Positions 42,988 through 59,732 of a stretch of 64,000 nt of DNA are shown one piece after another. Position numbers and translations under genes: made by a program. Source of the stretch: Streptomyces liliiviolaceus (lineage in GTDB: Bacteria; Actinomycetota; Actinomycetes; Streptomycetales; Streptomycetaceae); the NCBI RefSeq assembly GCF_018070025.1, contig NZ_JAGPYQ010000001.1, positions 2,480,001 to 2,544,000 on the forward strand. The letters are read 5' to 3'. How positions within the stretch are numbered: the stretch's first letter is position 1; each line of letters opens with the position of its first letter. The notes under the pieces are model-generated. The model was not told the DNA's origin and searched no databases. It was given only the letters and a program-made list of their open reading frames with translations.

Positions 42988-43335
42988 TCAGTGGCCGGTA
43001 GGAACAGTGGCGCTCTGTTTCCTCAACTCAGCCAATCGCCGCTGATACAGAGGTCCGGCAGCGAATGCGCCTCGTGCCTCACTCGGAGTGGACAACTCCA
43101 TGAGGTGATGAGCTACGGCCTTGAGGTGCGCAGACCAGGCCAGCACATGCTGTTGAGCGGTCCGCCCACATTCCTGCGGTTCACCGGGAAGGCACAACGG
43201 AAGCTGTGGCCCCAACTTGTTTGCCGCATGCCGGACGTAACGCGCAATCGAGGCCCATTCCTCGTCGGTCCGCTGTACGGCGTTGTTGCCGCCCTCCCGG
43301 CCCCACGGCCCGAAGTCGTCTCCGTGGTCGTCCAT
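42988..43335 (-). CDS. Small protein of unknown function in the radical SAM operon
   Basis: A 115-residue protein. ATG 43335 is chosen over 43353 because AGGAG lies eight bases upstream. It is helical and soluble (DEEWASIARYVRHAANKLG, AQQHVLAWSAHLKAVAHHLMEL), with an acidic start and no metal or catalytic motif. It follows the radical SAM gene by 14 bases on the same strand, and a terminator ends the unit after it. It could be a partner or carrier for the modified product. Family not recognised. Confidence 0.7.
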   Translation of the reverse strand: MDDHGDDFGPWGREGGNNAVQRTDEEWASIARYVRHAANKLGPQLPLCLPGEPQECGRTAQQHVLAWSAHLKAVAHHLMELSTPSEARGAFAAGPLYQRRLAELRKQSATVPTGH

Positions 43336-43349
43336 GTGCGGGCTCCTGA

Positions 43350-44261
43350 TCATCGCAACGGATTGGCCGGTACGCCGATCGTAGCGACGCCGTCCGTTTC
43401 CCTGGGGTCACAGTGCCCGACTGAGGGAACACATGGACCACACGGGCCGCACATGGGCAAGAACTGAGGCGGAGTACAGGACTGCGCACCTTCCCCGTGG
43501 ATGGCAGTGATGTCCGAGAGAACCGCTGTCATTCGTTCTCCACCCCAAATCTCGGGGAGAGGAGCACTCAGTACGTTTCCGATGGTGAGGAACCGGCCCA
43601 GGACACACGGCCACACGTCACCGGTCGGACCGATTGCGCATTTCTCGTGAGCGCAGTGACCGCACAGATCGCTGATCGTCGGGGCAGCACCCTTACTCGC
43701 CCGTCCGAATGCCCGGGTCTTGTCACCGCCCACCATGCCCACGCCGAGCATCGTCAGGTCTCTTGCCGCCTCACGGACGCGTTGGCCTTCCCGGACCGCA
43801 ACGACTCCGCCACGAAGAGGGATGTCGAGGCTCAGCGCCTTTTCCACGTTCGTCCGCGTTCGCCTGTGTGAACCCCTGAGCCGGGTCACCGAGTCGTGCT
43901 CCTCCGCTGTGTCGGAGTAGTACGACGTGGCGAGTTTGACCCCGCATTCCTTGAACGTCTCCCACAGCTCGTCCCGGATGTGCGTCATGTTGGAGAACAC
44001 CTCGACGGAGAGTCCTGAGCCATGAGCGTGCCGAATCAAAGCCGGAAGGCCCGGATGCAGGGTTGGTTCGCCACCGATGAACTGAACATCGAGTGCTCCG
44101 AGGTCCGCGAGTTGGTCAATGACGTGCGACCAGTCCTGAACGCTCAGGGCGCCGTGCGTCCCTTTGGGCGAAGAGTCCGCATAGCAGTGATCGCAGAACT
44201 CATTGCACAGTCCCGTGACCTCCAACCATGCAAACTTGAGTGCATTTTGGGCAGCGCTCAT
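43350..44261 (-). CDS. Radical SAM protein with SPASM-like auxiliary cysteine clusters
   Basis: A 303-residue enzyme. The radical SAM motif CX3CX2C is C19, C23, C26 (TGLCNEFCDHCYAD). FIGGEPTLHP provides the GGE motif for SAM binding. The C-terminal half carries C200, C203, C208 and C219, and a second group C262, C271, C274, C277 and C284, a SPASM/twitch-like pattern for auxiliary iron-sulfur clusters. Such enzymes mostly modify ribosomally made peptides, so a peptide substrate is likely (inference). The start at ATG 44261 has AAGGAG. It is followed by a small gene and a terminator. A possible precursor peptide is divergent (44313-44444). Confidence 0.88.
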   Translation of the reverse strand: MSAAQNALKFAWLEVTGLCNEFCDHCYADSSPKGTHGALSVQDWSHVIDQLADLGALDVQFIGGEPTLHPGLPALIRHAHGSGLSVEVFSNMTHIRDELWETFKECGVKLATSYYSDTAEEHDSVTRLRGSHRRTRTNVEKALSLDIPLRGGVVAVREGQRVREAARDLTMLGVGMVGGDKTRAFGRASKGAAPTISDLCGHCAHEKCAIGPTGDVWPCVLGRFLTIGNVLSAPLPEIWGGERMTAVLSDITAIHGEGAQSCTPPQFLPMCGPCGPCVPSVGHCDPRETDGVATIGVPANPLR

Positions 44262-44312
44262 TACAGGACTCCTTGCGGGGGTCGTCTCGTGATTCAGGAG
44301 GCCGGGGCGACG

Positions 44313-44444
44313 ATGGCAGGTGGGCGGTCCGGTGACATCAGCACCCGGGCCTACAGCGCGAAGGTTCCTGTTGCGGCCCTCACCCCGGCATTTCGTCGGC
44401 TCGGCTCTGGAGCAAGCGTCTTCTACGCGTCGATCAGCGACTAG
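44313..44444 (+). CDS. Candidate small peptide, possible radical SAM substrate
   Basis: A 43-residue open frame between the divergent radical SAM and XRE genes. AGGAGG (44296-44301) lies 11 bases before ATG 44313; an in-frame GTG at 44289 would make it eight residues longer. The C-terminus reads FRRLGSGASVFYASISD: a flexible GSG, then an aromatic/Ser-rich end such as rSAM enzymes often modify. The third codon position is the most GC-rich (31 of 43), mildly supporting coding. It does not fit the FXSXX-COOH peptide motif. It is speculative: it could be a chance frame over the regulator promoter. Confidence 0.4.
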   Translation: MAGGRSGDISTRAYSAKVPVAALTPAFRRLGSGASVFYASISD

Positions 44445-44482
44445 TGGCCCCGTGTAGGCCGGCTGTCGGCCAGAATCGGCAC

Positions 44483-45712
44483 ATGGGCAGCAGCATCGGG
44501 GCCAACATTCGGCACCTACGCGAACAGCGGGGGTGGAGTCAGGCACGGCTGGCGCGTGAGGTTTGTCAGGCAGCGCGGGTATGCGGCGAACCAGTCGGAC
44601 GGCAAGAGGTCAGCCGGTGGGAGACCGGCAAGCGCACGCCTCGCGAATGGTTGCCGTTCCTCGCCACCGCGCTGGGCGTGAACGTGGACGCTCTCGGTGC
44701 CCTTCAGAAACCGACTGAGCCTGCCGTACCGACTCTCGCTGAATTCCTGCCCGAAGGGGACCCGCTGAGTCCGTTGGAATACGGTACGGGGCGACGCATC
44801 GGAATGGGCACCGTCAACGAGTTGCAACAGCGGGTGCACGGGCTCAGGCTTGCTGATGATGTGCTCGCGGGGGGAGACCTGATCCGGCCCGCACTCAGAG
44901 ACTTGAGACGTACGGTGAAGCTGTACCGGGAAAGCTCACACACCGGTGAGGTAGGGCAGCAACTTCTCCGTCAAATCGGTGAGTTGGCACAGATCGCGGG
45001 GTGGATCGCCAGCGATGCCGGGCAGCACGAGGAGGCAGAGCGGATCTACCGGCTGGGGATCAGTGCTGCGCACCAAGCCGAAGACCACACACTTTCGGGG
45101 AATCTCGCCGGATCACTCGCCTACCAGATGAGCAACACAGGGCGAGAGACCGAAGGGCTGGCGCTGGCCCGTGCTGCCCTAAACGACGCTGGCGCCGAAG
45201 CACCCCCGAAAGCTCGTGCACTGTACCTGGACCGTGTGGCATGGGCTCACACGAAGTCCGGGGGCGCAGCCGACGAACAACAAGCCATGCGCGCATTGGG
45301 AGAGGCCGAACAGGCGCTCAGCGAGGACGACGAGGGAATCGAGTCACCCGTCTACCTGTATTGGGTGGACGCCGGTGAACTCAAGGTGATGGAATCACGC
45401 GTTTACACAGAGCTTCACCGGCCCTTACGTGCTGTGCCGCTGCTCCGGAAAGTCCTTGGCGGCTACGACGCGACACACGCCCGGGAGATGGCTCTGTACT
45501 TGTCCTGGCTCGCCGTCGCCCTGGCTGACGCCAACGAACCGGAAGAGGCAGCAGCCGTAGCCGAGCGTGTCATCTCCCTTGGTTCCGACACATCGTCAAA
45601 GAGAGTGATGGAACGGCTGCGCGTCATTCTCGGTCGGTTGCGGGATTTCGCGGACGTGCCGGCAGTCGCTGCCCTGTTGGCCGAGCACCAGCGGTCTACA
45701 AATCCCGTATGA
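44483..45712 (+). CDS. XRE-family regulator with TPR-like C-terminal domain
   Basis: A 409-residue protein starting at ATG 44483. The N-terminal Cro/CI HTH is at about residues 5-65 (IGANIRHLREQRGWSQARLAREV...GRQEVSRWETGKRTPREWLPFLATALGV). The remainder is helical with tetratricopeptide-like repeats (AGWIASDAGQHEEAERIYRLGISAAH; LAGSLAYQMSNTGRETEGLALARAAL; YLSWLAVALADANEPEEAAAVAERV). In Streptomyces this layout is common in regulators that sense small ligands or peptides. It overlaps the convergent DUF397 gene by 17 bases. It probably controls the neighbouring radical SAM locus (inference). Confidence 0.88.
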   Translation: MGSSIGANIRHLREQRGWSQARLAREVCQAARVCGEPVGRQEVSRWETGKRTPREWLPFLATALGVNVDALGALQKPTEPAVPTLAEFLPEGDPLSPLEYGTGRRIGMGTVNELQQRVHGLRLADDVLAGGDLIRPALRDLRRTVKLYRESSHTGEVGQQLLRQIGELAQIAGWIASDAGQHEEAERIYRLGISAAHQAEDHTLSGNLAGSLAYQMSNTGRETEGLALARAALNDAGAEAPPKARALYLDRVAWAHTKSGGAADEQQAMRALGEAEQALSEDDEGIESPVYLYWVDAGELKVMESRVYTELHRPLRAVPLLRKVLGGYDATHAREMALYLSWLAVALADANEPEEAAAVAERVISLGSDTSSKRVMERLRVILGRLRDFADVPAVAALLAEHQRSTNPV

Positions 45713-45890
45713 AGGCACGCCAAGCGTGAACACGCACGGAGAGTATGGGTCCTTCGGCCTTCTTGGAGTCGCGCACGAGGGCTGTGTCGACGGCGTGGGC
45801 GCACTCGACACACTCACCGCCCGCGCCGTTGCTGTAGGAGGACTTGAACCACGACGAGGGAGCGTCGGTGGCAGGCCGTGCAATCTTCAT
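45696..45890 (-). CDS. DUF397 family protein
   Basis: A 64-residue protein with the DUF397 signature: SSWFKSSYSNGAGGECVECAH near the start, VRDSKKAEGPILSV, then WRAFI at the end. DUF397 proteins almost always pair with a DUF5753-type HTH regulator, as here: the start codon overlaps the stop of the HTH gene by four bases (ATGA). In S. coelicolor such pairs (WhiJ/AbaA-like systems) influence development and antibiotic production. Confidence 0.92.
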   Translation of the reverse strand: MKIARPATDAPSSWFKSSYSNGAGGECVECAHAVDTALVRDSKKAEGPILSVRVHAWRAFIRDL

Positions 45891-46735
45891 CCTGCGTAAT
45901 CCTTAAGGACGGACTCGATCAGCTGGGTAGAGCGCTGAGGACTCAAGGCGGCGGCCCGCAATCCATCGAACGCCCTGACGTACTCACGCACATGATGCTC
46001 CCCTTCGAGGTAGACGGCATCGGTGATGCCGTCCCGGTACACGATGTCCGGATCCTCCTGGTCGGGGAAGCCGAGCATGGTGAACGATCCGGTGGCCGGG
46101 TAGGTGCCGGAATCGAACGGTAGGACTTGCAGAGTGACACTCGGCAACGCGGCTGCCGTCAGTACGCGTTCGAGCTGTTCTTTCATCAATGCCCGTTCGC
46201 CGATGACATTCCTGAGGGATGCCTCGTTCACCACGAACCAGGCGTCCGGGGCTCCGGGGCGCGTCAGCAGGGTTTGGCGCTCCATGCGTACGCGCACGGC
46301 CCGTTCGATGTCCTGGGCCGGCAGATGGGCCCCCGTCGTGTGTAGTTCGCCCGCGTATGCCGGAGTCTGCATGAGCCCGGGGAGCAGCTCGCACTGGTAC
46401 TGGCGGAACGTGGAGGCCTCCTGCTCCAGGCCGATGTAGATGGAGAACCACTGGGGCACTCCTGTGCCGTGCTCCTGCCACCAGCCGCGTGTCTTGGCCT
46501 GCCGCGCAAGGGACTTCAGGAACTCCCGCAACTCGTCATCGGTCTCGTAGTAGCGGCACAGCGCATCGATGTCGGACGGCTGGACCCTGCCGCTCCCCGT
46601 CTCCATCCGATTGACCTTGGAGCCGCTCCAGTCCAAGGCCGCGCCCACTTGCGCACAGGTGAGGGCATTGGCCTCGCGCAACTTCTTCAGCTCGATCGAG
46701 AGGCGACGACGACGTGCCGTCGGTGAACCCGCCAT
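45887..46735 (-). CDS. XRE-family regulator with DUF5753 domain
   Basis: A 282-residue protein starting at ATG 46735; the longer open frame upstream lacks family similarity. The N-terminal HTH (LSIELKKLREANALTCAQVGAALDWSGSKVNRMETG) is followed by a helical linker and the DUF5753 domain (FRQYQCELLPGLMQTPAYA, RQTLLTRPGAPDAWFVVNEASLRNVIG, VTLQVLPFDSGTYPATGSFTMLGFPD). It partners with the DUF397 protein translated just after it and is divergent from an RsbW-like ATPase gene, the usual three-gene Streptomyces regulatory set. Confidence 0.92.
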   Translation of the reverse strand: MAGSPTARRRRLSIELKKLREANALTCAQVGAALDWSGSKVNRMETGSGRVQPSDIDALCRYYETDDELREFLKSLARQAKTRGWWQEHGTGVPQWFSIYIGLEQEASTFRQYQCELLPGLMQTPAYAGELHTTGAHLPAQDIERAVRVRMERQTLLTRPGAPDAWFVVNEASLRNVIGERALMKEQLERVLTAAALPSVTLQVLPFDSGTYPATGSFTMLGFPDQEDPDIVYRDGITDAVYLEGEHHVREYVRAFDGLRAAALSPQRSTQLIESVLKDYAG

Positions 46736-46942
46736 TCCCAGGACCCTTCGCAGTAACCGGCGTTCAGTCTCGTGCCAAGAGGCTTGCTTGCCAATCACTC
46801 GGAAGTGGGAATCCCGCCGTGCACATTGCATTTCGGGATACGCAGGCGTCATTCTGACGATCGACGCCACTCACTGTGCGTGTTTGATCGACTCCATAAG
46901 GCAGTGAAGTGACGGTGCCGACGGAGTCTGAGAGGGGAGCCT

Positions 46943-47431
46943 GTGATCGAGGACTCGTGCACGTCCCAGAAGTTGTGGGACTTGGCTTTCATGGCAGAGC
47001 CGGAGGAGGTGGCCGCCCTGCGCCGTTTCACGGGGTTGCACCTGGAAGCATGGGGACTGGGGCAACTGATCGACGAGGCTCAACTGTGTGTGAGCGAGCT
47101 CGTGGCGAACGTCATCACACACGTCGGGCCCGGCACACCGGCCAGACTCGTGATCTCGGTGAGCGGCACGCATGTGCGCATCGAGGTCCACGACCCCGAC
47201 ACCCGCGCCCTCCCTATTCTGCTCGACGCGACGTCGGACGCCGAGAATGGCCGGGGGATGGCTCTGGTCGGGGCGATCACCGCTCGCTGGGGCGTCCAAC
47301 TTCTTGCCGATCGGAAGGTGACGTGGTGCGAACTGGAGGCGGGCCTCCCTACAGCTCATGGGAATCAGGGAGGTGCCCAAGCGTCGAAGCAGCATGCCCC
47401 GTGGAGCTGCTACCCCTGCAAGAAAGCCTGA
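46943..47431 (+). CDS. RsbW-like ATP-binding (anti-sigma/histidine-kinase fold) protein
   Basis: A 162-residue GHKL-fold protein starting at GTG 46943 (GGGGAG site). The N box is LCVSELVANVITHV, the G1-like motif is DAENGRGMALVGAIT, and RIEVHDPDTRALP lies between. These small ATPases resemble anti-sigma kinases and often sit beside HTH/DUF397 pairs. It has a Cys-containing C-terminal tail (WSCYPCKKA). Its 3' end overlaps the convergent restriction gene by 22 bases. Its partner is unknown; no sigma factor or anti-anti-sigma gene is adjacent. Confidence 0.85.
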   Translation: MIEDSCTSQKLWDLAFMAEPEEVAALRRFTGLHLEAWGLGQLIDEAQLCVSELVANVITHVGPGTPARLVISVSGTHVRIEVHDPDTRALPILLDATSDAENGRGMALVGAITARWGVQLLADRKVTWCELEAGLPTAHGNQGGAQASKQHAPWSCYPCKKA

Positions 47432-48819
47432 TGGCGGTTACGAGCAACCACCAGCAACTTCTTCTGCAGCGCGACGCGCTCTTTTCCTCGTGTTTTGAGG
47501 GCGTGGCAGTTCGGACACAAGGCGATCATGACTTCGGGGATGTCTTGCCCCGTGCGGGCCAAGCCGTTGACGTGATCGACCTCCAGGAGGGGCGCGTCAG
47601 CGTCCGTACGCTCAAGCGGATGCCCCATGCAGGAGGGGTTTTCACAGCGGTTTTCACTGCGGAGGATCACGGCTTCACGAGCAGCAGGTGAGCGCAGGTA
47701 ACGTTCCACCCGACTTAGCTTCGAGCTGCGCGTTCGGTTAGCTGCCGTCCGGCGAGCAGCTGCCGTCAGCTTCTTGTACTTCTGCCGAGCGTTGGTTCGC
47801 AGCGACTCCGCGGGCAGGTCCACTTCCATGGGGATCACGTCGACAGAGTCGTCGTGGAGCTGACCGTCATCCTGGTTCAGAGCTTCGGCGACCTCGTCAA
47901 GCCAGGTGTCGGGCGCCGGTGACGGAACTGGTGCCAGTATCCAAACGAACTCGCGTCGGGGTTGTTTGTCTTGGCCGTGGCCCCAGCGGCGACGGCGTTG
48001 AACGATGACGGCCCAAGTCTCGAACGTCCAGTGGCCGCCGTGCGGTTTGTGCCAATACCGCAAGGCCTTCCGTTGTTCCTGGTGCCGCGCCATGGTGCGG
48101 TTGCCCCCGGAGAGCGTTTGGTCGCCAGACAGGCCATCGCCTGTGTAAGCGATCCAGTCCATCCCAGGGATGCGCTTATCGTCGTACGGGCCCTTGTCGT
48201 CCGAGTAGACGCTGAGGAGGCCGTCCGCGAGCGGCGTGATCCCTCCTACACGATTTCCGCCGTAGACGTCGGCTATGGCGCCGCGATGCCGATACGGCTC
48301 CCCGGGAAGAGGTTGCAGGTGGGCGGTGATCTCGCCTGCCATCAACTCCTGCAGTTCTAGAGCCTCTAGTAGCCGCGGGGGCGTGGGGTTGAAGAACCGT
48401 ACGAGCAGGGTGCCGACAGCTCGTGCCGCTAGTTCAAAGTCTCCACTCAGCCGGTCGTAGTCCTCCTCCGGCAGCCCAGCAAGCGGGTCGGTTTCGTCCA
48501 GCGCGGACAATGTGGGGCGTCGCCCTTGGCTCGTGAGGGAGAGGTCGGCGGGATCCGTCACTTCCCACAACTTGTCCCGCTGCAAAGCCCAGAAGGGATA
48601 CAACGCAGCCTGCTGGCCGTCAGCCGAACCGGCGAACTCGCTGAGCAGCGGCCCCACGGCATCCTTGACCACCGACCAAGGTTGCGCACGCGGACGGCCG
48701 TGTGCGGCTTGGGCGATGGCCCACAGGAGCAGCAACGGACGATGCAGCGGTTGACCTGTAGTTCGCTGAGCAGGACGTAGCTTGCCTATCCGCTCGATCA
48801 AGTCTCGTGCGTCGGCCAC
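47410..48819 (-). CDS. ScoMcrA-like HNH endonuclease (probable type IV restriction enzyme)
   Basis: About 469 residues. GTG 48819 with GGAG upstream is preferred; the frame is open to 48885. Three parts are seen. The N-terminal LRPAQRTTGQPLHRPLLLLWAI...ALYPFWALQRDKLWEV region resembles the sulfur-binding domain of ScoMcrA. The middle VYSDDKGPYDDKRIPGMDWIAYTGDG...LSGGNRTMARHQ resembles an SRA/YDG-type modified-base reader. The C-terminal HNH nuclease has CENPSC, LLEVDHVNG and CPNCHALKTRG. ScoMcrA cuts DNA carrying 5-methylcytosine or phosphorothioate. The domain calls are by eye. It lies 126 bases downstream of a second restriction-like gene on the same strand. Confidence 0.8.
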   Translation of the reverse strand: MADARDLIERIGKLRPAQRTTGQPLHRPLLLLWAIAQAAHGRPRAQPWSVVKDAVGPLLSEFAGSADGQQAALYPFWALQRDKLWEVTDPADLSLTSQGRRPTLSALDETDPLAGLPEEDYDRLSGDFELAARAVGTLLVRFFNPTPPRLLEALELQELMAGEITAHLQPLPGEPYRHRGAIADVYGGNRVGGITPLADGLLSVYSDDKGPYDDKRIPGMDWIAYTGDGLSGDQTLSGGNRTMARHQEQRKALRYWHKPHGGHWTFETWAVIVQRRRRWGHGQDKQPRREFVWILAPVPSPAPDTWLDEVAEALNQDDGQLHDDSVDVIPMEVDLPAESLRTNARQKYKKLTAAARRTAANRTRSSKLSRVERYLRSPAAREAVILRSENRCENPSCMGHPLERTDADAPLLEVDHVNGLARTGQDIPEVMIALCPNCHALKTRGKERVALQKKLLVVARNRHQAFLQG

Positions 48820-48945
48820 TTCAGCACTCCAGCCCTCTAGCGTCACTAGTAGGACTATCTGACCAGACGGCACTGACATCGCCACTGAAGCCTGGCTCAG
48901 CTGCGGTGCCTGTTGCTTCGCTGAGACGCGTCTCCTGGCGGTCTC

Positions 48946-51900
48946 TTAACCCGCCGCGATCGCTGAGTACGTCCACACATCGGCCGGAAGCTCATGCTTC
49001 AGGCGCCAAGTGATCGCCATCGGCTTGCTGCCGGTGTGCTCCACGTATGTTGCCGGGCCCAGGAGCATCCAGGGCTGGGACTTGCCGATGTCGTTGTTCT
49101 TGTAGCGGCGCATGAACAGGAGGATGTGGCTGCCCTGCTGTGCGTGTCGCTGGTAGCGCAGGCCGGTCGGGGAGTTCTCCGCCGTTGCGTTCTGCGATTC
49201 CCAGTGGAAGAGAGCGGGACTCAGCGCGTAGTCCTTGTAGCGGATGGTGGGGGAGAAGTCCTTTTCGTTCTTCTCCAGTGTGATCAACAGGGCGTCAGTC
49301 TGGATCTCATTGACGTACTGCACGCCCTGGGCGAAGGACCTCGGCATCTGGCCGCCGAAGCGGGCAACGCCGAGGGCGGCCAGGATCTCAGAACGGTTGT
49401 AGGCGCTGTGAACCTTCAAGGGGACATCATGGTGAGGGCCTGCGAGCGGGATCGGGAAGTGATCGGAGCGATCGATGACGTAGGACAGTACTTGTCGGAG
49501 TTCATCGCGGAACATATTTTGCGTGCGTAGCGATTCCAGGCCCTCTTGGAAGCTGGTGAAGCCCCCGGCGTTGTCCCACAGGTTGAAGAAGAGCATGCGG
49601 GCGTACATCTGGTCGAGGGGAGCTAGATCTGCGTACGTGGGTGCGTCATCCGAGAGCAGCCGAAGGTAAGCGCCGGCACGCTCGGGGTCGTCGACGTGTA
49701 GGAACGCGTGGACGCGCTTGAGAAGTGCCGCTTCCCTCGTGGGCGCCGGATCTTCGACGAGATCGGCCTTGCGCAGAACTGCCGTCCAGGAGTTGTCGCT
49801 CTTGTAGAGCTCCTTGATCTCTCGGCGGCTTTCGCGGAGATAGTCCGCGAGCCGCGGTGTGCTGTACGACTTGGCCTCGTTCGCCAACGTCTTGATCGTG
49901 GCGCCCAGCTGTGTGCGGATGTTGTCGAGGACGAGGTCCTTGGATTTCCCTTCCAGGATGATCTGGCACCCGGAGGGGAGCTGTGGGAAGTCTCGCTCGA
50001 TGTGGTCTACGAGCCGGTTCCGTGTGAGGTTCGTCAGGGCTCGGAACTGTTCCTCGAAACGGAACTCCGCCCGATGCTGGCCGATGAAGTCCAGGACGGT
50101 GAGTACCGGCTTCGTCTGCGTGCGGCGTAGGCCGCGGCCTAGCTGCTGAAGGAAGATCGTGGCGCTGTTGGTGGGACGCAGGAGCAGAAGAGTATCGACG
50201 TCCGGAATGTCCAACCCTTCGTTGAACAAGTCGACGGAGAAGATCACCTGAAGTTTGCCGTCGCGTAGGTCGGCCAGAGCATCTGCACGCACTGCGGTGG
50301 GCGAGTCACTGTCGAGCGCCACGGCTTGGAACCCCGACGTGCGGAAACAGTCGGCCATGAAGTGAGCGTGAGCCTTGGACACACAGAAACCCAAGGCCCG
50401 CATGACTCCTGGGTTCGGAATCTTGTCCTGGATTTGCTTGATCACGATGCGGGCGCGGGCGTGGTGGCCCGTGTAGAGGTTGCTGAGTTCTTGTTCCGCG
50501 TACGTACCCTTCTGCCACCCGAGACGAGTCAGGTCTGTGCCATCCGGGATGCCGAAGTAGTGGAAGGGGCACAGCAAGTCATTCTCAAGGGCTTCCCACA
50601 GCCGCATCTCTGCTGCAATGCGGCCTTCGAAGAACTCATCTTGGACGTTTCGTCCGTCCATCCGCTCGGGTGTGGCAGTGAGACCGAGCAGTTCCTTCGG
50701 CTTGAAGTGGTCGAGGACTCGTCGGTACGTCGCAGCCGTGGCGTGGTGGAACTCGTCGATGACGATGACATCGAAGTGGTCGGACGCGAGTCGCTCCAGC
50801 CGCTCGACCTTTAGCGATTGGACGCTGGCGAAGATGTGGTCCCAGTCCCTCGGGTCCTCGCCGCCATGGAGCAATTCTCCAAAAGAGGCGTCGTCTAGTA
50901 CCTCGCGGTACGTGCGCAGCGACTGCCGCAGGATCTCCTTGCGATGAGCGACGAACAGAAGCCTCGGTTTCCCATTGCCGAACTTCTCGTGCAGGGACCG
51001 GTAGTCCAGAGCCGCCATCACTGTTTTGCCCGTGCCGGTGGCTGCGACGAGGAGGTTGTGGTGCCGGTCGCGAAGCTCACGCTCAATGGTGAGGCGCTCC
51101 AACATGTCCTGCTGATGTGGGAAGGCGTGTACCTGGAGTCCGGAAAGGTTGATCTGCAGATCGGTGGCGGAACCTGTGCCGCTTGCTTGAGCTAGAGCTC
51201 GATCGAGTCGCTCACCGTCACCGTCAGGGTCGTAGGACTCGAAGGCGATGTCGTTCCAGTACGCGTCGAAGGTTGCCTCGAATTTGTCCAGGACCGCGGG
51301 GGTTGCCACCGACGACAGACGTACGTTCCACTCCAAGCCGTCGAGCAACGCAGCCTTAGACAGGTTCGAGCTGCCGACATACGCGGTGTCGAAACCGCTG
51401 TTGCGTCGGAACAGCCATGCCTTTGCATGCAGTCGCGTAGACCGGATCTCGTAGTTGACCTTTACCTCGGCACCGAAGTCACGGACCAGGCGGTCCAGTG
51501 CGAGTCGATCGGTGGCACCGATGTAAGTCGTCGTGATGACGCGAATCCGTACGTTCCGCTCCTTAGCGGCCCGGAGCGAATCTTCCAGTACGCGGATGCC
51601 GTACCACTTCACGAAGGCACACAGGAGGTCAACGCTGTCCGCGGTAGCCAACTCGGCTCGTAGTTCCGCGCCCAGACTTGGGTCATCCGAGGCGTTGGTG
51701 ATAAGTGCCGTCTCTGACAGAGGCGTGAGGGGGCGGAGTGCGTAAACGCCCGGCGCCTCTTGCTCCGCGAGGGACAGCAGCTGCCGTGGGCCGTCCATGA
51801 TGGCGCCGACAGCCTCGTCCGGCTCCGGCGCACTCTCATCGAGCGACGACAGGATCTGGTTAGCGGCGGCGACTCGCTTGTCGTGCGGTAGGCGGCTCAG

Positions 51901-52086
51901 CCTCCGCCCCACAGCTTCGGCGATGTAGCGAGCGAGTACATGCGGAGCCGATTGCGCACTGACTTCCTCGTGGATCGCCTTCCAGCCCGATGCTTCGAGC
52001 TGCTCTATCTGACCGTGAAGACTTTCAGTGATGAGCTGCTCATAGACACCCGCGTCCGGCTGCGCCAGATCCCCCGGCTCCGCCAC
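48946..52086 (-). CDS. SauUSI-like PLD nuclease-helicase with DUF3427-type C-terminus
   Basis: About 1046 residues. GTG 52086 (GAGGGAG seven bases upstream) is preferred over GTG 52107. The N-terminal phospholipase-D-type nuclease has H220 and K222 (RLHAKAW) plus GSSNLSKAAL. A superfamily 2 helicase follows: Walker A ATGTGKT at 349-355, DEFHH at 444-448, TATPERMDG, and QQLGRGLRR as motif VI. The C-terminal about 500 residues match the DUF3427-type region. This order is that of SauUSI, an ATP-dependent type IV restriction enzyme that cuts 5-methylcytosine DNA. The target here is unknown. It probably defends against modified phage or plasmid DNA. Confidence 0.85.
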   Translation of the reverse strand: MAEPGDLAQPDAGVYEQLITESLHGQIEQLEASGWKAIHEEVSAQSAPHVLARYIAEAVGRRLSRLPHDKRVAAANQILSSLDESAPEPDEAVGAIMDGPRQLLSLAEQEAPGVYALRPLTPLSETALITNASDDPSLGAELRAELATADSVDLLCAFVKWYGIRVLEDSLRAAKERNVRIRVITTTYIGATDRLALDRLVRDFGAEVKVNYEIRSTRLHAKAWLFRRNSGFDTAYVGSSNLSKAALLDGLEWNVRLSSVATPAVLDKFEATFDAYWNDIAFESYDPDGDGERLDRALAQASGTGSATDLQINLSGLQVHAFPHQQDMLERLTIERELRDRHHNLLVAATGTGKTVMAALDYRSLHEKFGNGKPRLLFVAHRKEILRQSLRTYREVLDDASFGELLHGGEDPRDWDHIFASVQSLKVERLERLASDHFDVIVIDEFHHATAATYRRVLDHFKPKELLGLTATPERMDGRNVQDEFFEGRIAAEMRLWEALENDLLCPFHYFGIPDGTDLTRLGWQKGTYAEQELSNLYTGHHARARIVIKQIQDKIPNPGVMRALGFCVSKAHAHFMADCFRTSGFQAVALDSDSPTAVRADALADLRDGKLQVIFSVDLFNEGLDIPDVDTLLLLRPTNSATIFLQQLGRGLRRTQTKPVLTVLDFIGQHRAEFRFEEQFRALTNLTRNRLVDHIERDFPQLPSGCQIILEGKSKDLVLDNIRTQLGATIKTLANEAKSYSTPRLADYLRESRREIKELYKSDNSWTAVLRKADLVEDPAPTREAALLKRVHAFLHVDDPERAGAYLRLLSDDAPTYADLAPLDQMYARMLFFNLWDNAGGFTSFQEGLESLRTQNMFRDELRQVLSYVIDRSDHFPIPLAGPHHDVPLKVHSAYNRSEILAALGVARFGGQMPRSFAQGVQYVNEIQTDALLITLEKNEKDFSPTIRYKDYALSPALFHWESQNATAENSPTGLRYQRHAQQGSHILLFMRRYKNNDIGKSQPWMLLGPATYVEHTGSKPMAITWRLKHELPADVWTYSAIAAG

Positions 52087-52133: not shown

Positions 52134-53150
52134 TCACGCATCGCTGCCGTGGCACTCCCCATACCCCCGCCCCGACCCACACCAACACCCCGCCCCCCGC
52201 TCCGGCGGCCAAGCCACAGCGCGGCCCCGTGCCGCCAGCGTCGTCGCGTACTGCGGTAGCAGCGATGCTTCGCTCGGGGATGCCAGTTCCGAGGCTGCGA
52301 AGGCCTCGTACGACGGGACCGTGCCTGTGACGATGCCCAGGTTCGGGGTGCCCGAGGCGGACAGTTCGCGCAGGGAGGCCTCTATCGTCGACAGGTGGTC
52401 CTCGTGGGACGGGTACTCCGTGGACAGGTCCGGGTACGCCGTCAGGAGTTCGGTCAGTTCGGGGGCCGGCCAGTGGAGGACCGCCACCGGGAACGGGCGC
52501 GACAACGCCTCGCGGAACGTGCCCAGTTCGGCGCGCAGGCGGCTGATCTCCGCCTGCAGTTCCGCCGGGTTGTCCGAGCCCAGCGACCACACCCGCTTCG
52601 GGTCGTGCAGCTCGTCCAGGGTGACCGGGGAGGAGTTGAGCGTGTCCGCGAGGGAGTCCCAGTCGTCGTGGGACAGGCCCAGCATGCGGCGTACGCGATG
52701 GCGGCCGAAGAGGACCGGGTGCGTCGCGTACGGCGGCTCCGGGACGTCGGTCAGGAGGTGGACCGCCGCCTCCGTGAACGTCTCCTGCGCCGCCTCCAGC
52801 TCGTCGTGGGACTCCAGGGACTCGGCGACGATCACCCAGGGGGCCGGGTCGCGCGGTGCCGCGGCGCGGACGCCCTCGATGATCGCCCTGGCCTCCGCCT
52901 CGTGGCCGTACTCCCAGAGGTTGGCCGCCTTCAGGGCCCGTACCAGGAACGGGTTCTCCAGCGGGGTCGTGCTGGAGAGCAGGCTGTCGTAGAGAGAGGT
53001 GGCTCGCGGGCGGTCGTCGGCCAGTTCGAGGTGGGCCGCCGCCTGCACGAGCAGGTGTTCGGCGTCCTCGGGATACAGGCCGGCTGTCCGCTCCAGGCGT
53101 GCTGCTTCGGCGTTGTGGTCGACGTACTCGGCAGACGTGTCGGGGCGCAT
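52134..53150 (-). CDS. SEC-C motif protein with TPR-like repeats
   Basis: A 338-residue acidic helical protein. ATG 53150 is preferred to the longer frame start because the domain begins there. The first half looks TPR-like (AGLYPEDAEHLLVQAAAHLELADDRPRATSLYDSLL; AANLWEYGHEAEARAIIEGVRA). A coiled-coil-like segment (ELQAEISRLRAELGTFREAL) lies in the middle. The C-terminus is a zinc-binding SEC-C motif, CWCGSGRGYGECHG. Function unknown. It lies 47 bases upstream of the SauUSI-like gene on the same strand, so read-through expression is possible, but its base use resembles the core genome. Confidence 0.85.
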   Translation of the reverse strand: MRPDTSAEYVDHNAEAARLERTAGLYPEDAEHLLVQAAAHLELADDRPRATSLYDSLLSSTTPLENPFLVRALKAANLWEYGHEAEARAIIEGVRAAAPRDPAPWVIVAESLESHDELEAAQETFTEAAVHLLTDVPEPPYATHPVLFGRHRVRRMLGLSHDDWDSLADTLNSSPVTLDELHDPKRVWSLGSDNPAELQAEISRLRAELGTFREALSRPFPVAVLHWPAPELTELLTAYPDLSTEYPSHEDHLSTIEASLRELSASGTPNLGIVTGTVPSYEAFAASELASPSEASLLPQYATTLAARGRAVAWPPERGAGCWCGSGRGYGECHGSDA

Positions 53151-53367
53151 GAGTGACACCGTACTGCCGACCGCCGACAGAGGTGAGGTATGTGCAGGCC
53201 AGGGGTCGGATCGGCGCGCAGTGTTCAGCTGGTTGTCCAGCTGCCTGTCCAGCTGCCGGTTCAGCTTGCTGTGCGGCCGGGCGTTCATGGGGATGGTGAG
53301 TTGAGGGCCCAGCCCTTATCGTGCGGGCCCGGTCCCTGAGCCCCGGTCCCTGGCAGGAGGCGCGCGC

Positions 53368-54177
53368 GTGCGGGTTCCCGTCGTCCATCAGCAGGGTCGG
53401 CGGCGGCGTGCGCGGTACGCCCGGCTCCTCTGGAACGGCGCCGAAGTCGTCGTGACCCTCGGTGTCGTCCTCCTGCTCCTCGTCGCCCATCAACTGTGGT
53501 GGACCAACCGGCAGGCCAGGGAAGGCGCCGAGCGCAAGGTCCAGGCCCTGGAACGGGAGTGGGAGGCGGAGGGGGAGAAGGAGGGGGAGGGCGGCCGTGA
53601 GGACGGGGTGGCGTCCGGAGAGAGTGGCGCGGCTCCTCCCGCGTCGCGTACCGGTTCAGGTTCCAGTTCCGGTTCAGGTTCCGGTTCCGGCGAGGGCCGC
53701 TCCGGCACCGACTCACCGCCCCGCTGGGACCAGGCCTACGCCGTCCTCCGCATTCCCCGGCTCGGGCTCCGTGTGCCCGTCGCCGAAGGGGTCGGGAAGT
53801 CCGGTGTGCTCGACAAGGGGTACGTCGGGCACTATCCGGACACCGCCCAGCCCGGCCGCGTCGGGAACTTCGCTCTCGCCGGGCACCGGAACACCCATGG
53901 CGAGCCGTTCCGGTACCTCGACCGGCTGCGCCGCGGGGACCGGGTCGTGGTCGAGACCCGGGCCGCCGTCTACACGTACGCCGTCGACCGGACGCTGCCG
54001 CGGACCTCGCCCGGGGACGGCGGGACGATACGGGCGATTCCTCGCAGTACGGTCAAGCCGGCGTACGGGTACACCGAGCCCGCGCACTATCTGACGCTCA
54101 CCACCTGCACACCCCAGTACACCTCCAAGTACCGCCTGGTCGTCTGGGGGAAGCTCCGTTCCGTGCGGCCCCGCTAG
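53368..54177 (+). CDS. srtE: Class E sortase
   Basis: A 269-residue membrane-anchored transpeptidase starting at GTG 53368 with GGAGG upstream. One N-terminal helix (VVVTLGVVLLLLVAHQLWW) is followed by a charged linker with a Gly/Ser repeat (SGSSSGSGSGSGEG). The sortase barrel begins at WDQAYAVLRIPRLGLRVPV. Catalytic His is in ALAGHRNTHGEPF, Cys in LTLTTCTPQYTSKYRLVVWG (TLxTC), with Arg in YRLV. Streptomyces class E sortases attach chaplins and other LAXTG-type proteins to the wall. No substrate gene is adjacent. Converges on the kinase operon. Confidence 0.93.
   Translation: MRVPVVHQQGRRRRARYARLLWNGAEVVVTLGVVLLLLVAHQLWWTNRQAREGAERKVQALEREWEAEGEKEGEGGREDGVASGESGAAPPASRTGSGSSSGSGSGSGEGRSGTDSPPRWDQAYAVLRIPRLGLRVPVAEGVGKSGVLDKGYVGHYPDTAQPGRVGNFALAGHRNTHGEPFRYLDRLRRGDRVVVETRAAVYTYAVDRTLPRTSPGDGGTIRAIPRSTVKPAYGYTEPAHYLTLTTCTPQYTSKYRLVVWGKLRSVRPR

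Positions 54178-54232: not shown

Positions 54233-54233
<1 letters not shown>
54186..54233. repeat. Three 16-base tandem repeats
   Basis: CCCTCAGTCCCTCGAT occurs at 54186-54201 and 54202-54217, with a one-base variant at 54218-54233, exactly between the convergent sortase and kinase genes. Confidence 0.9.
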
Positions 54234-56548
<2,315 letters not shown>

Positions 56549-56550
56549 CG

Positions 56551-58899
56551 CTACACCTTGGAGGGGGCTTCGCCGAGGTAGCGGAACCTGCCGCCCTCGA
56601 CCTGGTGCAGGAAGATGCCCCAGCCGGCGAACGTGCCGTCCTCCGGCTTGAAGGAGAACTCCTTGGTGATGCCCTTGTAGCGGCTCGCGCGCAGCAGCTC
56701 CACGAGCTTCTTGCGGCTCGGGGGACGGGCGGAAACCTGCTTGTTCTTGGCGTTCGTGGCCTTCAGCAGCTCCTGGACGACGAGGTTGACGGTGTCGTAC
56801 GCCTCGGCCGCGTAGTAGCCGGGCGCGGCGTCGTAGCGTTTGCGGAACGCGGCGGTGAAGGCCTTCGCGGCCGGTACGGAGGCCGGGTCGACGAAGGACG
56901 CGGTCATCAGCCAGCCCTCGGCGGCCTCCCCGGCGCTCTTCAGGAACTCCGGGTCGATCACGGCCTGCGAGGCGAGCCGCGGTCCGTCGAAACCGGCCGC
57001 CGACAGCTCCCGGGCCACCCGGGCCGCGCCCGGCGCGTATCCGGCGTAGACGAACGAGCCGATCCCGGCCCGCAGCATGTCGGTGACGACCGGTCCCACG
57101 TCCTCGGTGCCCGCCGGGATCACCCGGGGGTAGGCCGGGCGGCCCAGACTGCGCATCATGGTGGCGTTGATCCCGGCGGACTCCTGGGCGTACGTCTGCC
57201 CGGTGCGGTCCTGGAGCAGACCGGCACGCAGCGCTCCCGCTCCCGGTGCCGACTGCTCCGTGGCCTTCGTGTGCTTCATGAGATAGACGCTCATGGGGAG
57301 GGAGAGGGCCGCGTCGCTGGGCCGGCAGTGCACGAAGGACCGGTACTCCTTCGAGGTCAGGAGCAGCCCTCCGGCCGAGACCGACAGCAACGGCAGCAGG
57401 GCCTCGTCGTACGTGCCGAGGACCGCGACGGCCGCCTCGTCGCTGGTGGGGCCGAGCACGGCGAGCACGTCGGTGTCCTGGATCAGCTTCTTCGCCGCGC
57501 CCGGCGCCCCCGCCGCGCTGCCCCCGTCGTCCACGGCCTTCAGGGCGAGCTCGAAGGGCTTGTCCTTACGGGAGTTGTACTGCTCGACCGCCAGCCGGGC
57601 GCCCCGCACCTGCGCCTCGCCCGCCTTCCGGGAGGCACCGCTCAGATCCGCCTGTACGCCGATGGCCCAGCGGCGGGTCCCCGGCGTACCCGGGTCGTCG
57701 TCGCGCAGGGCCGCCCAGGCCGCGGTACCGCCCGCCGCCATGAGCAGCGCCGCGCCGGACGCGAGGAGCAGCCGTCGGCGGCCGGGGGACGCGGGCTCCG
57801 CCGCCATGTCCTTGGTCTCGCCCGAGCCCCCGGAGCCCACTGTGCTTTCCGCGCCCCCAGTGCCCCCAGTGCCCCCAGTGCCCCCTGTGCCTTCCGGGTC
57901 CCCGGTCCGGGTTCCGGCGGCCGTCGGCTCGATGTCGGGGAGCGCCAGCATCTCGGCCGAACGGTCGGCGATGCCCCGTACGACGTCCTCGGGCAGCCAG
58001 GCGATCTGCTCGCCCCGGGGGATCGCGTCCTCGACCAGCAGGACCGTGTCGATCTGTTCGGCCGTCGGACGGTCCGCCGGGTCCTTCGCCAGGCACAGGC
58101 GCAGCAGCGTCAGCAGGTCGACACCACCGGCGGAATCGGCGGAGTCGGCGGAATCCGTGGAGTCGTCGGCGTCGGTGGGGGCGGCGGGGACGCCGGACAG
58201 GTCCGGTTCGTCGTGGACCGTGCGGTAGAGCAGGGCGTCCGCTGTGCCGAAGCCGAACGGCGGCCGGCCGCTCGCCGCGTACGCCAGCAGACAGCCCAGC
58301 GAGAAGATGTCGCTCGCCGGGCCCACCGCCGCGCCGCGCGCCTCGGCCTGCTCGGGGGAGAGGAAACCGGGCGTGCCGACGACCAGGTCGGTGGAGGTGA
58401 TCGCGGTCCCGTCGGTCGACCGGGCGATCCCGAAGTCGATCAGGCGGGGGCCGTCCATGGCGAGCAGGACGTTGGCGGGCTTGACGTCGCGGTGGACCAG
58501 CCCGGCCGCGTGCACCTCGCGCAGCGCGGCGGCGAGCATCCTGGCCAGGGCGAGCACGCTGCGGGTGGGCAGCGGGCCGTGCCGGACGACCGACTCCTCA
58601 AGCGAGGGGCCCGGTACGAAGGCGGTGGCCAGCCACGGCTCGTCCGCGTCCGGGTCCGCGCCGGTGACCGGCACCGCCCAGGGGCTGCTCACCCGGCGGG
58701 CCGTCTCGACCTCCCGGCGGAAGCGGGCACGGAAGTCGGGCTCGTCCGCGTACTCGGACCGGACGACCTTGACGGCGGCCAGGGCGCCGGCCTCGGTACG
58801 GCCGAGGTAGACCACGCCCATGCCGCCCGCGCCGAGCCGGGCCAGCAGCCGGTGGCCGCCGATCCGTGCGGGGTCGGTGGGGAGCAGCGGCCCGCTCAT
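56551..58899 (-). CDS. Receptor Ser/Thr protein kinase fused to ABC-type ligand-binding domain (copy 2)
   Basis: A 782-residue paralogue with the same layout. The kinase has GAGGMG (23-28), K44, HRD 136-138 and DFG 155-157. A Gly-Gly-Thr repeat linker is followed by a membrane helix and a type I periplasmic-binding domain (WAIGVQADLSGASRK, FELALKAVDDGGS, YDEALLPLLSVSAGG, APGYYAAEAYDTVNLVVQEL). The start ATG 58899 overlaps the stop of the upstream lipoprotein gene (ATGA). All motifs needed for an active kinase are present. Together with copy 1 and the lipoprotein it forms a tight three-gene operon. Confidence 0.92.
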   Translation of the reverse strand: MSGPLLPTDPARIGGHRLLARLGAGGMGVVYLGRTEAGALAAVKVVRSEYADEPDFRARFRREVETARRVSSPWAVPVTGADPDADEPWLATAFVPGPSLEESVVRHGPLPTRSVLALARMLAAALREVHAAGLVHRDVKPANVLLAMDGPRLIDFGIARSTDGTAITSTDLVVGTPGFLSPEQAEARGAAVGPASDIFSLGCLLAYAASGRPPFGFGTADALLYRTVHDEPDLSGVPAAPTDADDSTDSADSADSAGGVDLLTLLRLCLAKDPADRPTAEQIDTVLLVEDAIPRGEQIAWLPEDVVRGIADRSAEMLALPDIEPTAAGTRTGDPEGTGGTGGTGGTGGAESTVGSGGSGETKDMAAEPASPGRRRLLLASGAALLMAAGGTAAWAALRDDDPGTPGTRRWAIGVQADLSGASRKAGEAQVRGARLAVEQYNSRKDKPFELALKAVDDGGSAAGAPGAAKKLIQDTDVLAVLGPTSDEAAVAVLGTYDEALLPLLSVSAGGLLLTSKEYRSFVHCRPSDAALSLPMSVYLMKHTKATEQSAPGAGALRAGLLQDRTGQTYAQESAGINATMMRSLGRPAYPRVIPAGTEDVGPVVTDMLRAGIGSFVYAGYAPGAARVARELSAAGFDGPRLASQAVIDPEFLKSAGEAAEGWLMTASFVDPASVPAAKAFTAAFRKRYDAAPGYYAAEAYDTVNLVVQELLKATNAKNKQVSARPPSRKKLVELLRASRYKGITKEFSFKPEDGTFAGWGIFLHQVEGGRFRYLGEAPSKV

Positions 58900-59732
58900 T
58901 GCGGTGCCTCCAGTTCGGTCTCGACGCGGCTCAGCATCTGACCCGCTCCCTGTCGCAGCGCGGAGTCGACGTCGTCGTCGGAGCGCCCCTTCGCCCCCCG
59001 GCCGACGACGGCCACGGTGACCTGGCCCAGCCGGCTCTGCACCCAGTAGTAGTAGTGGGGGCCGCCGAGTGTGTCGCTGTAGTACTTGCCGCCCTCCGTG
59101 AGCGAGTCCTCGGAGGTGAAGTTGGCCAGCAGACCGTAGGCCGCGCCCTGCGAGAGCAGTCCGGTGATCCGCTCGCCCTGGCGGAGCTGCTGGTCGGGAC
59201 AGCGCAGCGCTTCCTCCAGCATGCCGGCCATTTCCCAGTCGGCGTCGTTCACGGTCCGGTGCACGGTGACGACGGCGGTGACGCGGATCGGGCCCTTGCC
59301 GCCCTCCGCGGGCAGTTCGCTGTTGCGGGTGAGGCTGGCGAGCACCGTCGAGGGCAGCGGCTCGCGCTCCCACACACAGTCGGAGTCGAGTACGGGCCAG
59401 GAGCCGGGGTCGCTCTCGTACGGGCTGCGCCGTACGAAGCCGGGGCCCCAGTTGGTGGGCGTCGCCGCGACCGCGCGGGCCAGGCGCAGGCCCTCGGCGC
59501 GGGTCTTCGGCGCGCGGTCGGGATCGGGGGTGAACCCCAGGGTGGTGGCGCTCGCGCTGGGGGCGGCGCCGGTGGAGCCGGTGGTGGTGGGGGCCGGGCT
59601 CGGGGGCGAGCCGGAGCGGGTGGATCCGGCGGACCCGTCACCTCCGGTCCCCGAACAGGCTCCCAGGCCCCCCAGTAACAGCCCGGTGGCCACGACACCC
59701 GTGAACAGCCGCACGGGTCTCCGGTATCCCAT
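58896..59732 (-). CDS. Lipoprotein encoded with the receptor kinases
   Basis: A 278-residue protein. ATG 59732 with GGGGG just upstream is used; ATGs at 59744 and 59750 are possible. A signal peptide with lipobox LLGGLGAC is followed by a Ser/Thr/Gly/Pro-rich linker and a soluble domain with many short strands (GPIRVTAVVTVHRTVNDADWEMAG, YYYWVQSRLGQVTVAVVG). Two further cysteines may form a disulfide. No catalytic motif is seen. Its stop overlaps the kinase start, so it may be an accessory sensor or a target at the cell surface. Confidence 0.85.
   Translation of the reverse strand: MGYRRPVRLFTGVVATGLLLGGLGACSGTGGDGSAGSTRSGSPPSPAPTTTGSTGAAPSASATTLGFTPDPDRAPKTRAEGLRLARAVAATPTNWGPGFVRRSPYESDPGSWPVLDSDCVWEREPLPSTVLASLTRNSELPAEGGKGPIRVTAVVTVHRTVNDADWEMAGMLEEALRCPDQQLRQGERITGLLSQGAAYGLLANFTSEDSLTEGGKYYSDTLGGPHYYYWVQSRLGQVTVAVVGRGAKGRSDDDVDSALRQGAGQMLSRVETELEAPQ

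Follow-up and report, generated by a model that had tools for sequence, protein, structure and literature searches.

Among described restriction enzymes, SauUSI and ScoMcrA stand closest to the two proteins compared here. SauUSI of S. aureus (PDB 7CLG) is reported to be dimeric and to combine a PLD nuclease with an SF2 motor that translocates and a reader of SRA fold that recognizes Sm5CNGS (PMC7913695); its substrates are m5C and hm5C (PMC3874153), and cleavage is ATP-dependent and takes place at two Sm5CNGS sites (PMC7913695, PMC3874153). ScoMcrA (Sco4631) of S. coelicolor (PDB 5ZMM) joins a sulfur-binding domain (SBD), an SRA-like domain, and an HNH nuclease domain behind an N-terminal head. 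Its restriction to GpsGCC goes with an acidic loop formed by E156, D157, and D160, and in an E156R/D157R mutant the contexts extend to GpsAAC and GpsATC (PMC7470945). N522 has been termed critical (PMC6224610), and H508A is the only catalytic mutant reported in the sections of the ScoMcrA paper that we saw (PMC3009677).

The window, a stretch of 64,000 nucleotides from Streptomyces liliiviolaceus, carries a gene of each type, and both genes proved to be real and to lie where the preliminary description had placed them. The SauUSI-type ATP-dependent type IV restriction enzyme (48946..52086, minus strand; 1046 aa) is read from a GTG at 52086, which fits as the start since the majority of its close relatives are also 1046 aa, although the open frame extends to 52107. 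Downstream on the same strand, the headless ScoMcrA-type SBD-SRA-HNH endonuclease (47410..48885; 491 aa) has 20 open codons, and no more, upstream of its start, and an ATG two codons inside the predicted start may be the true one. Only 60 bases separate the two genes, so they could be co-transcribed. No methyltransferase gene was found among the scanned neighboring genes. The region from approximately 42.9 to 52.1 kb has a G+C content of 62.9% versus 70.8% in the remainder of the window and is thus foreign in composition. On one side the pair is bordered by A2 (52134..53288, minus strand), a chromosomal anchor gene with a SEC-C motif that is common across the genus. On the other side, a HATPase_c_2 protein gene (46943..47431, plus strand) is convergent with the headless gene and overlaps its end by 22 bases, and is followed by an HTH_31-DUF5753 regulator identified by Pfam (45887..46870, minus strand), whose true start, as read from the translation, is probably near 46735.

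The large enzyme shares with SauUSI a PLD nuclease, an SF2 motor, and an SRA-type DUF3427 reader in one chain, and its Pfam domains follow the order PLDc_2, ResIII, Helicase_C, DUF3427. The PLD nuclease domain (51256..51585, minus strand; PLDc_2 E 8e-11) contains the HxK...GSSN catalytic motif, and H220, K222, and N241 (numbered from 52086) are invariant in 52 aligned sequences including the window's own. The helicase-like motor occupies 50125..51126 (minus strand; ResIII E 4e-38, Helicase_C E 2e-13), and the C-terminal target-recognition region, which in SauUSI has an SRA fold, occupies 48967..49569 (minus strand; Pfam and profile). With phmmer alone, only residues 149-682 align to SauUSI, but positions 128-1011 of a profile built from the 52 sequences align to residues 30-921 (of 953) of 7clg at E 4e-125, a span that takes in nuclease, motor, and coupler as well as the greater part of the reader. 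The protein thus has the domain set of a SauUSI-type enzyme, coupler included. A structure model of the reader was middling (pLDDT 69.0, pTM 0.51), and for this reason what we say about the reader is based on the Pfam match and the profile alignment. The enzyme nevertheless differs from SauUSI in sequence (about 24% identity), in having approximately 100 extra N-terminal residues with no SauUSI counterpart, and in scoring far better on a different PADLOC type IV model (PDLC03659, 1837 bits over 941 positions; PDLC03658, 265 bits). In another Streptomyces, a 1985-aa protein (L188:347-6304) couples AAA ATPase regions to an SF2 helicase whose similarity to the SauUSI-type motor is about 52%; Pfam finds neither PLD nor DUF3427 in it, and it may belong to the large NTP-dependent conflict proteins.

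The small enzyme is 51% identical to ScoMcrA over 474 aligned residues and has the same three domains in identical order, all read on the minus strand. Alignment to ScoMcrA places the SBD at residues 27-190 (48316..48807) and the SRA-like domain at residues 191-340 (47866..48315, boundaries approximate), and Pfam together with the alignment places the HNH nuclease domain at residues 387-470 (47476..47727, boundaries approximate). It keeps the ScoMcrA sulfur-cavity residues H116, R117, Y164, P165, and A168, as well as the base readers S187, R190, and R191. In the HNH domain, the counterparts of H508 and H531 and all four zinc cysteines are present, with D437, H438, and H461 kept. Unlike ScoMcrA, the protein has no N-terminal head, as the alignment begins only at ScoMcrA residue 95; D160 and R188 are replaced by Q and E156 by A, while D157 is kept; and N522 is replaced by V452, which is preceded by E451. 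Because of the valine, we regard the small enzyme as ScoMcrA-type by architecture and not as an ScoMcrA orthologue with the same active site. The genomic setting differs too, since this gene is at the chromosomal A2 site and that of ScoMcrA is on the SLP1 element (PMC3009677). SprMcrA and EcoWI likewise combine an SBD with an HNH domain and are not known to have a separate head domain. They have no SRA domain, and the catalytic residues of SprMcrA are H-N-R (PMC7461809). The detection by Pfam and alignment of SBD and SRA-like domains in the small enzyme and of DUF3427 in the large one agrees with the preliminary description, which had proposed two unrelated modification-dependent enzymes. Both do belong to type IV families and their nucleases differ (Pfam, PADLOC), but "unrelated" goes too far, considering that ScoMcrA has an SRA-like domain and the SauUSI reader an SRA fold (PMC7913695). 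Carriage of the small enzyme by plasmids or phages was also considered and set aside, as searches gave no match at E 1e-30 in plasmids or at E 1e-10 in phages.

The missing head and asparagine are features of a whole branch. We aligned 121 rows, consisting of the window protein and 120 of 171 homologues among the matches listed, which comprise 57 head-bearing rows, 47 headless rows (the window's included), and 17 whose annotated start lies within the SBD, among them P0009, which is the window protein itself annotated from a later start. N522 is kept in 57/57 head-bearing rows, 1/47 headless rows, and 1/17 late-start rows, whereas none of the 121 rows departs from D507, H508, H531, or the four zinc cysteines. 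An acidic residue occupies position 521 in a single head-bearing row (1/57), in 46/47 headless rows, and in 17/17 late-start rows. A role for E521 as a substitute for N522 is suggestive, but P0032 and P0053 carry both E and N, so E521 need not be compensatory. Pfam PF26345 (precomputed) was seen on long rows only, among the matches listed, and we take it to be the head domain. In the ScoMcrA-type tree, midpoint rooted for drawing only, three groups remain; we therefore say that the branch lacks the head, not that the head was lost or gained. Mean pairwise identity among headless rows is 72.5% for the HNH domain, 67.1% for the SRA-like domain, and 52.7% for the SBD, compared with 79.4%, 82.6%, and 74.0% among head-bearing rows. 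This pattern suits a nuclease that still works, though with different chemistry, and a reader in the course of diversification, and because the remaining catalytic and zinc residues are invariant, the small enzyme is expected to be active with catalysis altered relative to ScoMcrA. Without the head and the middle HNH asparagine its chemistry probably differs from that of ScoMcrA, for instance in slower cutting, nicking, or another metal preference, although the absence of N522 may also mean a weak or dead nuclease. Broken headless genes were seen at G387:C1:3989655-3991108 and G614:C1:802127-803468 (split frame; internal stops). No title naming the headless branch or its pairing with SauUSI-type genes was found among the matches listed from the restriction and Streptomyces hotspot literature, as far as these sources were available. 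The small enzyme belongs to a branch in which the head domain, N522, and most of the acidic specificity loop are absent but the other features are kept, and this branch is a natural test of what these three elements do in sulfur-sensing restriction enzymes.

Changes in that loop may bear on which sulfur contexts are recognized. Residues 156 and 157 are both acidic in 48/57 head-bearing rows versus 2/47 headless rows, and the loop carries a mean net charge of -1.6 and -0.9, respectively, making the headless loop less acidic but not basic. The less acidic loop may widen the sulfur contexts, a prediction for which the argument is weak: the published change was to arginine, the headless acids are mostly replaced by neutral residues, and the window protein keeps D157. 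By our own criterion the sulfur cavity is altered in 9/47 headless rows, and the window protein is unaltered. No DndC was found in the host's own genome, so a phosphorothioate would be a foreign mark here. Across 28 genomes with a ScoMcrA-type gene, none had a DndC match above the cut-off (one match, in G614, was below it), but DndC occurs in only 18/382 genus genomes, and 4.7% of 28 predicts 1.3, so a zero says little. The idea that ScoMcrA-type genes exclude phosphorothioate modification was accordingly not retained from this search for DndC. A single candidate m5C methyltransferase is encoded by the host, on the second contig, and its activity at overlapping sequences, if any, would be in conflict with an enzyme that targets m5C. 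By eye, this frame (L142) follows a gene resembling phosphoadenosine-phosphosulfate reductase, and the region is perhaps in a mobile element.

The preliminary description further spoke of a two-enzyme island. Across 392 genus genomes, a SauUSI-type gene is present in 117 and a ScoMcrA-type gene in 15 (10 head-bearing; 5 headless, one of them split), but adjacent headless pairs are present in only three, that is, 3/117 SauUSI-type genomes and 3/5 headless genomes. This is not the distribution of a fixed two-enzyme system, and the term overstates the case; 3/5 paired nevertheless has a chance of about 3e-8 under random placement in a 9-Mb genome. The co-location is therefore beyond random placement, although a shared hotspot may be enough to explain it. 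Counted by genome, SauUSI-type genes accompany head-bearing genes in 7/10 cases (Fisher p 0.009), always elsewhere in the genome and never adjacent (0/10), and headless genes in 3/5 (p 0.16), all of them adjoining. Adjacency, not genome-level co-occurrence, sets the headless branch apart. We extended the comparison to 17 headless and 18 head-bearing loci drawn from the genus set, the loci of a window-peptide search, and a family-wide search (394 genomes). Three of these (L007, L091, and L134) end at contig ends, L141 is only 34% identical, and L013, a 68-residue match, was dropped. A SauUSI-type gene lies within 5 kb at 7/17 headless loci versus 0/18 head-bearing loci (Fisher p 0.003, kinship ignored).

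At six of the seven paired loci the two genes are direct neighbors within about 320 bases. In the window and in L001, the headless gene follows the SauUSI-type gene on the same strand; in L002 it is 4.4 kb downstream, and in L003, L004, L005, and L031 it is divergent and upstream of the SauUSI-type gene; the L004 copy was missed by the gene caller and shown by tblastn. In a 22-row tree of SauUSI-type proteins, the paired genes are spread over three places, and an unpaired gene is also present in two of these. L002 is placed differently in two trees, and several relevant forks have moderate support. These trees suggest that the two genes probably met more than once, or parted often.

The meeting place is the A2 site. 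The A2 gene is present in 126/159 genomes and lies within six genes upstream at 52 of the 73 SauUSI-type loci that were read (68 of 116 other genus genomes, the window, and four from the window-peptide search), with no A2 match at eight. The site holds many different guest genes. In Streptomyces, the SauUSI-type gene is a frequent resident there and the headless gene a rare guest: it is found at A2 without a SauUSI-type gene in L009, and at none of 40 control A2 loci, which were chosen, mostly on long contigs, from A2-bearing genomes without a SauUSI-type match and of which only G045 is from a genome known to have a headless gene. We do not regard the site as a defense island, since only one of 10 guest families gave a PADLOC match, and that was to regulator (HTH) models alone. 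Across L030-L109, guest families that match neither Pfam nor PADLOC are repeatedly found next to the SauUSI-type gene (for example f19, f38, and f39; 344, 324, and 446 aa).

Regulators are frequent at the same site. At 48/73 loci, the first six genes downstream of the SauUSI-type gene include an ATPase or HTH gene of the families in the window. Within 14 kb of A2, the ATPase/HTH pair occurs at 42/65 SauUSI-type loci versus 15/40 control loci (Fisher p 0.009, kinship ignored), and within 10 kb at 7/40 control loci. The HTH proteins at the site are 36 to 85% identical to the window's, varying as if exchanged. The suggestion that the regulators at 45.7-47.4 kb may control the enzymes is not supported, because the ATPase gene is convergent and the pair is also found at the site without a SauUSI-type gene. 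The HTH-DUF5753 and ATPase genes look like members of the XRE-DUF397/WhiJ-AbaA-BldB clusters, which are described, in the sources as far as seen, as regulators of development and antibiotics; no link to restriction was found among the matches listed, in the parts available to us.

We consider it likely that the locus holds two autonomous type IV enzymes side by side in a variable Streptomyces site. Domain order, residues, and placement are observed; for substrates, motor, and cleavage we infer from characterized relatives. As in SauUSI, the large enzyme would most likely read 5-methyl- or 5-hydroxymethyl-cytosine through its C-terminal SRA-type domain, move along DNA on ATP by means of its SF2 motor, and, once two complexes meet, cut by means of a dimeric PLD nuclease. 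In the small enzyme, the SBD would most likely bind Rp-phosphorothioate DNA and/or the SRA-like domain modified cytosine, with cutting or nicking nearby by the metal-dependent HNH domain. Together they would most likely form two independent type IV barriers, one ATP-driven and directed at m5C DNA and the other directed at phosphorothioate and/or m5C. A reading that fits this account, and which we rate at slightly better than even, is that the A2 site simply collects foreign genes, so that enzymes meet there without a working relation. The wide distribution of A2 with its many guests, the foreign composition of the region, and the solitary headless gene of L009 are all consistent with this, and a hotspot explains both the trees and the arrangements. 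The close spacing at six of seven paired loci argues against it, as does, weakly given the single genome known to carry a headless gene, the absence of that gene from the 40 control sites.

A working relation, in which the headless protein has become mainly a mark reader or nickase and its binding or nick brings in or sets off the neighboring ATP-driven PLD enzyme on the same DNA, seems unlikely to us. Adjacency confined to the headless branch, paired genes in three tree places, two arrangements that suggest repeated juxtaposition, and the near-universal lack of N522 in headless rows could all be read in this way. Against this, 10 of 17 headless loci have no SauUSI-type gene in the stretch read (for L007, 1.3 kb on one side), L009 lacks one at the very same site, 114 of 117 SauUSI-type genus genomes have no headless gene, genome-level co-occurrence is no greater for headless than for head-bearing genes (3/5 versus 7/10), and invariant HNH catalytic residues argue for cleavage of its own. 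More specifically, the headless, N522-less branch might be a ScoMcrA put to a new use, repeatedly recruited next to the ATP-driven SauUSI-type nuclease, to which it would hand marked DNA as a nickase or a broad sensor of phosphorothioate/5mC; we think this quite improbable, but if true, the two proteins would be a two-component type IV system. Very unlikely, in our estimation, is that the small enzyme is a degenerating ScoMcrA with a dead nuclease, on its way out. The replacement of N522 and the broken copies at 2/17 headless loci would suit decay, but D507, H508, H531, and the zinc cysteines are invariant in the forty-six other headless sequences, and the HNH domain is better conserved than any other in the branch. 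Returning to two autonomous enzymes as the preferred account, the A2 site is a chromosomal place where type IV enzymes can meet, and these enzymes may explain part of the cloning barrier in such Streptomyces.

Two further groups of genes in the window were observed. Next to the regulators, a radical SAM/SPASM gene (43350-44546, minus strand) has as neighbors a 121-aa gene to which Pfam assigns no family and, in divergent orientation, an NsdA-type TPR regulator (44444-45712, plus strand), and together (42988-45712) they could be a small peptide-modification locus. Beyond A2, a sortase gene (53368-54177, plus strand) adjoins two tandem genes (54233-59373, minus strand), each of which encodes a serine/threonine kinase domain fused to a Peripla_BP_6 periplasmic-binding-protein domain.
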